This document shows positions 18,792-27,840 of a stretch of DNA of 64,000 nt, piece by piece (position 1 is the stretch's first letter; every line of letters begins with the position of its first letter). Made by a program: the position numbers and the translations under genes. Below the pieces are notes generated by a model. That model made no database searches, was not told where the DNA came from, and saw nothing but the letters and a program-made list of their open reading frames with translations. The stretch spans positions 868,001-932,000 of the forward strand of contig JADGEL010000001.1 in assembly GCA_016744415.1 (NCBI GenBank). Direction: 5' to 3'. The stretch comes from Flavobacteriaceae bacterium (lineage in GTDB: Bacteria; Bacteroidota; Bacteroidia; Flavobacteriales; Flavobacteriaceae).

Positions 18792-20231
18792 ATGATTCAA
18801 TTTATTTTAAATAATGAAGTTGTTAAAACTTCAGCACATGTCGGAATGACTTTGCTCGATTTTATTCGAGAAAACAAACAGCTTAAAGGAACCAAAATAG
18901 GATGTAGAGAAGGAGACTGTGGTGCATGTACGGTACTAGTCGGAAATTTAAAAGATGCCAAAATTTCTTACCAAAGTATTACTTCTTGTATTTCACCTCT
19001 TGGTAACGCCAATGGAAAACATATAGTTACGGTTGAAGGAATTAACCTTCCTGAAAAGTTGAATACCGTTCAAAAATCCATGGCAGATAATTATGCCACA
19101 CAATGTGGATTTTGTACCCCAGGTTTTGTGGTGTCAATGACAGGGTATGCTATAAATTCTGTCGAAGAAAATTCAAGTAAAAGTAATTGTACGGATGCTA
19201 TTAGTGGAAATATTTGTCGATGTACAGGGTATAAGTCTATCGAAAAAGCAGCAACTAGCGTAACTGAAAAATTAGAAGAGAATAACGCCAATAATAAAAT
19301 GGAATGGTTGATTAATGAAGGATTTGTTCCAGATTATTTTAAGACAATTCCAGAAAAACTAAAACATCTTGTCATTGCGAGGAGAGAGGAACAAATGACG
19401 TGGCAATCTCATAGTAGAGAATCAAAGATTGTTGCAAATGGAACAGATTTATATGTACACAATGCTGATAAACTTTCAGAAGAAAATGTCAATTTAATTG
19501 CTGGCGATGATTCCCTCAAAGGAATTTCCTTTACCGATACTATTTGTACTCTTGGAGCAAATACTACAGTAACCGAAATGTTCGAGCATAAAAAGTTAAA
19601 TACAATTTTCCCAAAACTAAAAGCATTTTTAAAACTCGTATCGTCTGAACAAATCAGAAATATGGGAACCTTGGGAGGGAACTTTGTAAATGCTTCACCA
19701 ATTGGTGATATGTCAATTTTCTTTTTAGCATTAAATAGTTCCTTATCAATTATGGATTCGAATGGAAGTGTTAGAAAATTTCCTTTCTCTGATTTTCATC
19801 AGGGATATAAAAAGTACGATTTAAAAAATGACGAAGTAGTGCATTCTATTTCATTTCTAATTCCTGATTCAACTACATTTTTCAATTTCGAAAAAGTAAG
19901 CAAACGAACTCATTTAGATATTGCAAGTGTGAATTCAGCAATGAAAATTTCAATATCAAATGACATAATTTCCAAGATACATATTTCTTTAGGAGGTGTA
20001 GCTCCAATTCCAAAATATTTAAAAAAGACAACTCAATTTTTGGTTGGTAAATCATTATCTGTAAAAACAATTATTGAAGCAGAATCAATTTTGCAATCAG
20101 AAATATCGCCAATAAGCGATGTAAGAGGAGCATCAGATTATAAACGCTTATTAGCACGACAATTATTTTTTGCTCATTTTGTTGAATTGTTTCCAAGTAA
20201 CGTTTCATTCCAAAATTTAATCACCTCATGA
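18792..20231 (+). CDS. xdhA: Xanthine dehydrogenase small subunit (2Fe-2S and FAD domains)
   Basis: ATG 18792 gives 479 residues beginning MIQFILNNEVV, the usual start of the ferredoxin domain; a TTG at 18747 adds 15 residues with no family match. The N-terminal part binds two 2Fe-2S clusters (GCREGDCGACTVLVG, CGFCTPGFV, GNICRCTGY). The second half is a molybdopterin-dehydrogenase FAD domain (IVANGTDLYV, NMGTLGGNFVNASPIGDM) plus a C-terminal CO-dehydrogenase-flavoprotein-type domain. It passes electrons from the XdhB molybdenum site to NAD or another acceptor while hypoxanthine and xanthine become urate. Oddly, residues 194-206 are encoded by a dispersed palindromic repeat, in the linker between the two domains. 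Confidence 0.93.
   Translation: MIQFILNNEVVKTSAHVGMTLLDFIRENKQLKGTKIGCREGDCGACTVLVGNLKDAKISYQSITSCISPLGNANGKHIVTVEGINLPEKLNTVQKSMADNYATQCGFCTPGFVVSMTGYAINSVEENSSKSNCTDAISGNICRCTGYKSIEKAATSVTEKLEENNANNKMEWLINEGFVPDYFKTIPEKLKHLVIARREEQMTWQSHSRESKIVANGTDLYVHNADKLSEENVNLIAGDDSLKGISFTDTICTLGANTTVTEMFEHKKLNTIFPKLKAFLKLVSSEQIRNMGTLGGNFVNASPIGDMSIFFLALNSSLSIMDSNGSVRKFPFSDFHQGYKKYDLKNDEVVHSISFLIPDSTTFFNFEKVSKRTHLDIASVNSAMKISISNDIISKIHISLGGVAPIPKYLKKTTQFLVGKSLSVKTIIEAESILQSEISPISDVRGASDYKRLLARQLFFAHFVELFPSNVSFQNLITS
19371..19410 (+). repeat. Dispersed repeat arm embedded in the xdhA reading frame
   Basis: GTCATTGCGAGGAG, a spacer, then GACGTGGCAATCTC is the form of a common dispersed bacterial palindromic repeat. 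The reverse complement of the right arm of the intergenic element at 27767-27840 has the same plan (TGTCATTGCAAGGA, spacer, GACGTGACA). In xdhA it is read in frame as VIARREEQMTWQS, between the iron-sulfur and FAD domains. Confidence 0.65.
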
Positions 20232-24429: not shown

Positions 24430-24430
24430 A

Positions 24431-24459
24431 TGCCTTTCCTGCGAAAGCGAGAATCCAGA
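24431..24459. repeat. Decayed REP-like palindrome between allB and allantoicase
   Basis: TTCCTGCGAAAGCGAGAA is an imperfect palindrome close to the common bacterial repeat form TTCCCGC-GAAA-GCGGGAA. An ATG at 24430 opens a frame through it (MPFLRKRESRI) that joins the allantoicase frame, which would give a false N-terminal extension. Confidence 0.5.
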
Positions 24460-24471
24460 ATAAAATATAAA

Positions 24472-25467
24472 ATGAAAGAAAAACTAACTAAATATATAGA
24501 TCTAGCCTCTGAAAAAATTGGAGGAAAAGTCTTGTACGCAACAGACGATTTTTTTGCAGAAAAAGAAAACCTTATTAAAGAAGGTCGCGGAGTTTTTATT
24601 GAAGATAAATATACGGACCATGGTAAATGGATGGACGGCTGGGAATCGCGAAGAAAAAGAACTCCAGGTCATGATTGGGCAATACTAAAGCTAGGCGTTG
24701 AAGGAAATATCAAAGGTTTTGATATTGACACCAATCACTTTTTGGGCAACCATCCGCCACACGCGTCCGTAGAAGCAATTCATTTAGAAGATGATTTTTC
24801 CGATTGGGCAAATGCAGATGATTTGAATTGGGATGAAGTTCTAGAAAAATCATCTTTAGATCCTGGGAGTCAGCATTTTTTTGAAATAGATTCTGATAAA
24901 ATATATACTCATATTAGATTACACATATATCCAGATGGTGGTGTCGCACGTTTTAGAGTATATGGAGAAGCGTATAAAGATTGGAATTCAGTAAATGAAA
25001 ATGAACTCATAGATTTAGCTTTGGCAACTAATTGTGGAAAGGCATTAAATTGTAATGACATGTTTTTTAGTGCCATGGATAATTTAATTGCTCCAACCAC
25101 TGGGAAAAATATGGGTGATGGTTGGGAAACCAAACGCAATCGTACTCCCAATAATGTAGATTGGGTTGTGTTACGATTGGGCCACCAAGGATTGGTTAAA
25201 AAAATAATTGTAGACACAAAACATTTTAAAGGAAATTATCCTGATAGTTGCTCAATTGAAGCTTGCAATAATTCAAATGATGAAGATGTGCTGAGTGATA
25301 GAACTGAATGGAAACCTTTATTATCACAGCAAAAATTAGAGGCTAATCAAGAACATATTTTTGAAGGGAATTCAATTGAGAATCACAATCCAATTACGCA
25401 TATCAAATTGAAAATTTATCCTGATGGTGGAATCAGTAGATTGCGAATTTTCGGAACAATTAAATAA
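24472..25467 (+). CDS. alc: Allantoicase
   Basis: Starting at ATG 24472 the product is 331 residues, the usual family size. It holds two allantoicase repeats: GKWMDGWESRRKRTPGHDW and later MGDGWETKRNRTPNNVDW, each followed by a beta-sandwich segment (DIDTNHFLGN, VDTKHFKGN) and IRLHIYPDGG or IKLKIYPDGG. It splits allantoate into ureidoglycolate and urea. The upstream ATG at 24430 is rejected because the extra 14 residues are repeat-derived. No ureidoglycolate lyase or urease is visible in the window. Confidence 0.92.
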   Translation: MKEKLTKYIDLASEKIGGKVLYATDDFFAEKENLIKEGRGVFIEDKYTDHGKWMDGWESRRKRTPGHDWAILKLGVEGNIKGFDIDTNHFLGNHPPHASVEAIHLEDDFSDWANADDLNWDEVLEKSSLDPGSQHFFEIDSDKIYTHIRLHIYPDGGVARFRVYGEAYKDWNSVNENELIDLALATNCGKALNCNDMFFSAMDNLIAPTTGKNMGDGWETKRNRTPNNVDWVVLRLGHQGLVKKIIVDTKHFKGNYPDSCSIEACNNSNDEDVLSDRTEWKPLLSQQKLEANQEHIFEGNSIENHNPITHIKLKIYPDGGISRLRIFGTIK

Positions 25468-27766: not shown

Positions 27767-27840
27767 CGTCATAACAAAGGAGTAAAACGACGAAGTAATC
27801 TTTTAAATAGAGTGTCACGTCCTATGTCCTTGCAATGACA
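27767..27840. repeat. Two-armed palindromic repeat element
   Basis: The ends are CGTCATAACAAAGGAG and CTTGCAATGACA. The arms are degenerate relatives of the GTCATTGCGAGGAG...GACGAAGCAATCT palindrome seen in many bacterial genomes. It fills the gap between the HIU hydrolase fusion and the CitE-like gene. Its right arm, reverse complemented, matches the repeat inside xdhA. Confidence 0.6.

Follow-up and report, generated by a model that had tools for sequence, protein, structure and literature searches.

We report that xdhA, the gene for the xanthine dehydrogenase small subunit in a 64,000-nucleotide stretch of a Flavobacteriaceae bacterium genome (assembly GCA_016744415.1, contig JADGEL010000001.1, positions 868,001 to 932,000; hereafter the window), carries in frame one arm of a dispersed repeat of the repetitive extragenic palindromic (REP) type. 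Copies of the repeat are scattered through the genome, most relatives have no such insert, the reading frame is open, and in other species of the genus this loop is occupied by a repeat of another family. That two other species have another family there is more surprising than the insert itself, and comparison across the genus reveals six genes (xdhA, menE, a deoxyinosine-glycosylase-like gene, mvaD, metG and gltX) in which one loop holds in-frame REP-like units that differ between species. The most probable explanation in our judgment is that REPs are mobile and insert at many places but persist only where a loop tolerates them, which brings repeated hits to the same loops.

A dispersed repeat arm in the XdhA linker

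The source genome of the window comprises 3.13 Mb in 6 contigs and is 98.4% complete. The xdhA reading frame is unbroken from ATG 18792 to the stop at 20231; the longest open reading frame (ORF) begins at TTG 18747, and the conserved protein begins at ATG 18792. The gene and the parts of its insert are as follows.

18792–20231, plus strand: xdhA, xanthine dehydrogenase small subunit (2Fe-2S, 2Fe-2S and flavin adenine dinucleotide (FAD) domains), 479 residues, frame intact; TIGR02963 match at E = 7.3e-112, below the curated cut-off
19371–19410, plus strand: REP-like arm of the long-loop subtype, in frame, covering residues 194–206 plus one base, assigned from model scores and the ortholog alignment
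19371–19384, plus strand: arm head GTCATTGCGAGGAG, identical in the sister species
19397–19410, plus strand: arm tail GACGTGGCAATCTC, with 13 of 14 bases the same in the sister species

A preliminary description of this DNA had placed a 40-base repeat at 19371–19410 and had read it as residues 194–206 between the 2Fe-2S and FAD domains, and both the position and the reading hold. The segment translates as VIARREEQMTWQS plus one base, in codon phase 0. Pfam analysis of XdhA without its first methionine locates two [2Fe-2S] domains within residues 6–153 and the FAD domain from residue 201, so that the insert, residues 193–205 in this numbering, lies at the linker between the domains and reaches the beginning of the FAD profile match. 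The closest solved chains, 2w3r and 1jro, align with a 4-residue gap at the insert site, in a stretch where alignment confidence is low.

Linker length among orthologs marks the carriers. In an alignment of 37 XdhA rows, the window included, the linker measures 26–30 residues in 33 rows, 36 in the window and L052, 31 in L055 and 38 in L057, and a recognisable repeat occurs in exactly those four long-linker rows; an indel at this site had been anticipated in the preliminary description, and the 36-residue linkers of the window species and its nearest sampled relative bear that out. Rows omitted from the alignment were a duplicate (L054), two distant sequences (L051 and L053), a truncated gene (L059) and seven matches without a listed locus, two of which (G058 and G033) enter the alignment as L032 and L033. 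L052, from the closest sampled species (80% identity), holds VIARSEERTTWQS at the insert site, and because the arm is common to this sister species the insertion is not a recent one. No repeat was discerned in the 30-residue linkers of two further members of the genus, L056 and L058.

The remaining two long linkers are occupied by other units. The linker of G152 (L055) holds GTCACCTCGAGCGGAGTCGAGAGGTC, which belongs to a different repeat family; 25 bases of it recur identically at G152:C35:217629, and its relatives number 14 copies in a 400-kb sample of G152 (reversed control 0). In G158 (L057), GTCACCTCGAGCG and CGAGAGGTC flank a nested further unit, CGTCATCTCGAGCGGAGTCGAGAGG, of which 24 bases are found again elsewhere in G158, and the frame is still open. 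These linker units of G152 and G158 translate as SPRAESRGQ and SPRARHLERSREARGQ, start about 5 bases later than the window arm and place the tag in codon phase 2, compared to phase 0 in the window. Since G152 and G158 are sisters on the menE tree (support 99/96), their xdhA units may represent one insertion followed by later nesting.

We traced the family of the window arm, arm A, with two repeat models. Model R2 was built from 14 training arms that exclude the xdhA copy, the sister-species copy and both arms of an intergenic element near 27.8 kb, and it ranks 19371–19410 first in the window (E = 1.5e-6), with the 27.8-kb arm stretches at 0.0027 and 0.011 and the next match at E = 1.8; this test is only partly independent, as the training arms came from a pattern based on the 5′ half of the arm. 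Model R1, trained on 18 arms with the xdhA copy among them, was used on the window species' own genome (G000 in the genome samples and locus comparisons), where 150 of 695 first-look candidates were scored and the counts are lower bounds: at least 41 matches at E ≤ 1 and at least 26 at E ≤ 0.01, the xdhA copy sixth in rank. A 5′-half pattern allowing up to 2 mismatches finds 17 places in the same genome (reversed control 1), many of which carry by eye a 3′ half like GACG(T/A)(G/A)GCAATCT that is absent from the search pattern, and in many own-genome loci an inverted partner is seen by eye after a short spacer. Each 14-mer end taken alone, at up to 3 mismatches in the 64-kb window, gives no significant excess (2 matches against 2.11 expected, and 3 against 1.92). 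Across the genus, the arm A family reaches E ≤ 0.01 in 8 of 14 genomes, the own genome counted.

The intergenic element, of which both arms belong to the same family, is resolved as follows.

27767–27802, plus strand: left arm of the two-armed element; R1 E = 0.0016 (in training), R2 E = 0.0027 for 27778–27802 (not in training)
27808–27839, minus strand: right arm, inverted; R1 E = 2.1e-4 (in training), R2 E = 0.011 for 27839–27816 (not in training)

The match between the xdhA arm and this element, proposed in the preliminary description, is real but loose, and among the compared loci the closest whole-length copy lies in another genome of the genus. The xdhA copy is of a long-loop subtype whose nearest members among the compared loci, the sister species aside, are L180 and L181 of G151 (3 and 5 differences in 40); L180 is identical to the xdhA arm at 37 of 40 bases over the whole length, and the nearest own-genome copy among these loci, L088, has 7 differences in 40. 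The xdhA copy is one arm of an often two-armed element, and neither it nor the sister-species arm, as single strands, shows a folding excess over shuffled sequences. The term 'palindromic' thus suits the two-armed form better than the single xdhA arm, and the two-armed element at 27.8 kb shows no folding excess either.

Copies of arm A are strongly depleted in genes. Among the 30 best own copies, those with loci, 27 lie outside ORFs of at least 100 residues and 3 lie inside (xdhA, the menE-like gene and the glycosylase-like gene), whereas ORFs cover about 91% of the sampled stretches. Further copies in the genome, for which the preliminary description proposed a search, are thus dispersed and seldom coding, and because they are rare in genes most insertions into genes must be lost.

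Repeat units at one loop in six genes

We chose genes for comparison first from the 30 own loci, three of which are coding hits, and then from leads in two genome samples and genus-wide loci. Ten genes have recognised internal units, of which 6 carry different units at one loop, 1 carries the same unit in both species and 3 are not comparable. The product of the six coincidence chances, calculated for 21-codon windows under even placement, is approximately 2e-8 and serves as a guide only, since it treats one coincidence per gene and ignores how the genes were chosen.

Of 13 menE loci one is truncated, and 8 of the other 12 show no unit. In the own genome arm A stands beside a second unit, GTCATTTCGAG...CGAGAAATCTC, while G152 carries GTCACCTTGAACGGAATCGAAAGGTC and G149 carries CGGACACTGAACGTAGTCTAAGTG; an insert in G156 (L144) is of doubtful origin and was left out of the counts. 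menE is repeat-free in G155, the sister of the window species (100/100), and in G158, the sister of G152 (99/96), and because the sister species of both carriers lack the repeat, the gains in the window species and G152 look independent. In G155 (L146), the menE loop that bears REPs in other species consists mostly of tandem ACGAATT and close variants.

The glycosylase-like gene is a 242-residue ORF whose match to deoxyinosine glycosylase falls below the family cut-off. Five of its eight orthologs carry an insert and three do not, and the inserts are mostly dimers. Those of G000 and G155 are apparently in part one older, shared and decayed dimer, to which G155 adds one extra unit, and the insert of G150 differs from the others. 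Closely similar two-family heterodimers occupy the same loop after PRxHQF in G152 (L169) and G113 (L172), in opposite orientation; in the nearest relatives of these species on the menE tree (G158 for G152, and G160 and G157 for G113) the glycosylase-like loop is empty.

Three further core enzymes complete the set. In mvaD, different units occupy one loop of G113 and G151, no repeat-free ortholog was seen in the genus, and the solved relatives displayed have a 4-residue gap immediately past the unit. In metG, three different unit sets are found at one loop in G152, G155 and G154, the G155 set consisting of two units, and the best solved MetG relative is 8 residues shorter at the loop over three gaps. 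In gltX, a two-armed arm A element is common to G153 and G151, G150 has GTCACCTCGAGCGCAGTCGAGAGGTC at that loop, and the closest solved GltX, 6brl, has 13 residues fewer there over two gaps.

The coding readings of a single family differ from gene to gene. Within the own genome, arm A is read as VIARREE in xdhA, as PSLQGGTPKQS in menE and from the reverse strand as EIASSKTPRNYD in the glycosylase-like gene, that is, in two forward phases plus the reverse strand, which argues against selection for one peptide. Pfam domain matches persist in the proteins with in-frame units.

Outside the six genes, a PglX-like ORF carries the same unit in the one other species compared. More in-frame units occur in an ATPase-like ORF of G000 (L247:17303-18088), a chorismate-binding enzyme of G158 (L093) and TrpF of G155 (L098), for which an ortholog from another species was absent among the loci compared. 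In G113, an argininosuccinate-lyase-like ORF opens with a repeat that more likely lies upstream of the true start, and this gene was not counted.

Dispersal, structure and known relatives of the units

We asked which units are dispersed using probe counts in samples of 400–464 kb from G000, G113 and G152, with a gene's own copy included where sampled; G149, G150, G151, G153, G154 and G155 lie outside these samples. REP-like units of several families are present in the genus, in numbers that vary between species. A generic scan for tagged perfect-stem palindromes gave 15 hits in G000, 24 in G113 and 31 in G152 compared to 17, 12 and 16 in reversed controls, and its coding hits served as leads only, kept if REP-family-like by eye. 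For most unit probes the reversed controls are 0; for the two arm A halves the controls give 0–1 matches against 0–4, and the 3′ half in the three samples shows no excess (0, 1 and 2 matches against 1, 1 and 1).

With these probes, the menE unit of G152 has 2 matches in G152, the 5′ part of the second menE unit of G000 has 2 in G000, the glycosylase-like units of G113 and G152 have 2–7 in each of those two genomes, and the mvaD unit of G113 has 6 in G113, its own copy counted. The gltX unit of G150 has 7 matches in G152, and within G150 the exact pattern gives that copy alone; the metG unit of G152 has 2 matches, one of which is itself; and one metG unit of G155 has 1 match in G113, 2 in G152 and 1 in G000. 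Dispersal is weak for three units: that of menE in G149, with 1 match in G000; the first of the glycosylase-like units in G000, whose single matches in G152 and in G000 both look like arm A; and the additional glycosylase-like unit in G155, matched once in G152 and once in G000. In G150, the first unit has no above-control support in the sampled genomes, and the second is matched once in G113 (control 1) and once in G152. The tail of the mvaD unit of G151, ACGAGAAATCTCA, gives on its own 1, 5 and 2 matches in the three samples with controls of 0. In 5 of the 6 genes at least two different units have dispersal support, the second mvaD unit being identified by shape and tail only.

The units can be compared to the CGTC-tagged REPs which, according to Di Nocera, De Gregorio and Rocco 2013 (PMC3733652), occur in five phyla including Bacteroidetes and sometimes lie inside genes. 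Arm A resembles the REPs described there in its CGTC/TGTC tag, its dispersal, its mostly intergenic location and its inverted pairs and heterodimers; for the REPs described there no dedicated transposase is known. In the CGTC/TGTC/CCTC tag, 16 of 18 arms start with CGTC or TGTC and two with CGTA, the xdhA copy having TGTC, a count biased by the fact that most arms were found with a pattern starting in CGTC; the dispersed, mainly intergenic inverted pairs of the group are matched by the 27 of 30 copies outside ORFs. Unlike the four CGTC families of that account, the xdhA arm lacks their 8–9 bp stem and 4–5 base loop, and by reading arm A has just ATTGC/GCAAT pairs around a long loop.

Other units in the genus do form such stem-loops. 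The glycosylase-like units of G113 and G152 and the metG unit of G152 have an 8–9 bp stem with a 4–5 base loop (ATTCCGAA-CTTGT-TTCGGAAT, ACCCTGAA-CTTGT-TTCAGGGT and ATTCCGCA-CTTGA-TGCGGAAT), and folding exceeds shuffled sequences in the two glycosylase-like dimers (z −5.5 and −5.4) and the metG stretch (z −2.9). These units share tag, dispersion and stem-loop with the CGTC group, and the xdhA family shares only tag and dispersion. The G152 and G158 xdhA unit has CTCGA/TCGAG pairs, a six-base loop and imperfect outer pairs in place of the 8–9 bp stem, with folding z of −0.05 (single) and −0.63 (nested).

Precedents exist for REPs inside genes. PMC3733652 reports different REPs at about the same site in recB of two Xanthomonas species and REPs at different sites in other genes of one functional category; unlike those differing sites, six genes here share a same-loop pattern in one genus. 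Rickettsia palindromic elements (RPEs; Ogata and others 2000, 2002) lie in frame in many unrelated metabolic genes, as related in PMC10969869 and PMC3733652, the latter noting that RPE-4 and RPE-6 correspond to CGTC families. The likeness to these elements drawn in the preliminary description is apt as a way of working, as judged from the in-frame placement of the units that the sequence indicates here; the differences are that the present units are about 25–40 bases, fall into several families, include one family read in several frames, and reside in a flavobacterial host. Intragenic fusions of enterobacterial repetitive intergenic consensus (ERIC) elements and other miniature inverted-repeat transposable elements (MITEs), in which small mobile repeats add codons, were described by Delihas 2007 and others (cited in PMC10969869). 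The units are likened to these ERIC and MITE fusions by description, not by sequence. ERIC is a different family, in enterobacteria. We found no report of flavobacterial in-frame palindromes or of such recurring loops in a literature search that most subscription papers lay outside. In-frame REPs are already known; what is new is that they recur at fixed loops of core enzymes.

Elsewhere in the window, the genes downstream of xdhA form what we take to be a purine-degradation cluster. An ORF after the allantoinase-like gene opens at 24430–24474 with a REP-like unit, ATGCCTTTCCTGCGAAAGCGAGAATCCAG (MPFLRKRESRIKYKM...), and its true start may be ATG 24472; probing for units of this kind gives 4 matches in the G000 sample of 464 kb, in which the window is included, 5 matches in G113 and 15 in the 400-kb G152 sample, with controls of 0.

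Tolerant loops as the probable explanation, and alternatives

In the explanation we prefer, xdhA would have acquired an arm of a dispersed REP-type repeat with a CGTC/TGTC tag while its frame stayed open, most simply in an ancestor shared by the window species and its nearest sampled relative, and the arm would have either taken the place of the linker that joins the second 2Fe-2S domain to the FAD domain or lengthened it. Several REP families would still be moving in the genus, and selection would remove nearly all insertions into genes, leaving survivors in a small set of tolerant loops that different families would occupy independently; because tolerant loops are few, independent arrivals would meet at the same places. 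The encoded peptide itself is probably incidental: the readings of one arm vary in phase and strand, and the peptides found at this loop in other species are unrelated to it.

Several observations weigh against this explanation. Repeat-free genus orthologs are seen in just 3 of the 6 genes (xdhA, menE and the glycosylase-like gene), and three units, the full-length mvaD unit of G151, the metG unit of G154 and the second metG unit of G155, have 0 matches in the three sampled genomes. No target-site duplication was read, and PF01797 (Y1/RAYT-type transposase) was not found in the own genome; it has matches in 6 of 14 genomes of the genus, several of them partial or with stops. An AlphaFold model of XdhA from a 3-row alignment (mean pLDDT 43.4, pTM 0.41) did not demonstrate exposure or disorder of the linker, and exposure is taken from domain boundaries and alignments only.

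Codon conservation in the insert points the same way. Between the window and L052, 10 of 10 amino-acid-conserved codons in the 14-codon insert stretch are identical, compared to 230 of 372 elsewhere in the gene (p = 0.009), and the four base differences in 40 all lie mid-arm, in codons with a changed amino acid. This is not plain neutral decay, and DNA constraint, conversion by other copies or separate insertions could each produce it; the signal is suggestive and not strong, because 124 of 1386 40-base windows of xdhA are equally similar between the two species and 9 of 1386, the insert included, match as perfectly in both arm positions.

A possible but doubtful alternative is that REPs seed their own hot spot, a resident palindrome attracting more REPs so that recurrence reflects target preference and not tolerance alone. 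The unit nested in a unit in G158 xdhA, the two unit kinds side by side in own-genome menE, the two units in G155 metG and the mostly dimeric glycosylase-like inserts all favour such attraction, and REP heterodimers are already known (PMC3733652). However, menE carriers with different families have repeat-free sisters, which means that REPs can also enter an empty loop, unless units were lost from the sisters, and repeat-free loops also exist in xdhA and the glycosylase-like gene. An occupied loop may itself be a good target and could thus contribute alongside tolerance.

Improbable in our assessment is recruitment of the inserted peptide, with selection on the protein retaining it because it extends a loop or forms a contact. 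The insert does stay in frame across approximately 20% amino-acid divergence, and loops are lengthened repeatedly in core enzymes including metG and gltX, but one arm yields readings in several frames and on both strands, depending on the protein, other species have an unrelated peptide or none at this loop, and amino-acid identity between the window and L052 is lower in the insert (10 of 14) than in the rest of xdhA (372 of 461).

Still harder to credit is a role of the element as DNA or RNA inside the gene, for instance as a binding site, a transcript hairpin, or a gyrase or nuclease site. The 10 conserved insert codons, free of synonymous change between two species while the loop changes, speak for it; set against it, the single arm folds no better than shuffled sequences and the gene is intact in relatives without the arm, and the codon comparison covers two species only. 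Chance likeness of an ordinary coding linker to the repeat, to which the lack of significance of either half alone in the window and of a 3′-half excess in the three samples would be congenial, is rejected by the E = 1.5e-6 from a model without the xdhA copy together with an indel exactly there among XdhA orthologs and the 37 of 40 bases shared with L180.

Survival of mobile REPs in tolerant loops remains the reading we favour, and it admits a bolder extension that we offer tentatively, as rather less than an even prospect. A small fixed set of loops in core enzymes of the genus, tRNA synthetases included, could be docking places for unrelated palindromes, with a succession of arrival, nesting, inversion, decay and in-frame replacement, so that short segments of essential proteins would turn over by mobile elements and not by point mutation.

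To our knowledge, descriptions of in-frame palindromes have come mainly from Rickettsia, together with scattered cases of REPs inside genes. For annotation, the present units counsel caution, as stretches such as RHSELVSES or VIAR.EE.TWQS within proteins can derive from repeats. Together, these comparisons make one flavobacterial genus a set of natural replicates, in which the same loop in different species holds different repeats and, for three genes, relatives with an empty loop are at hand, so that the limits on survival of selfish DNA in genes, the role of REPs as targets for other REPs, and whether the inserted peptides ever become useful are now testable.
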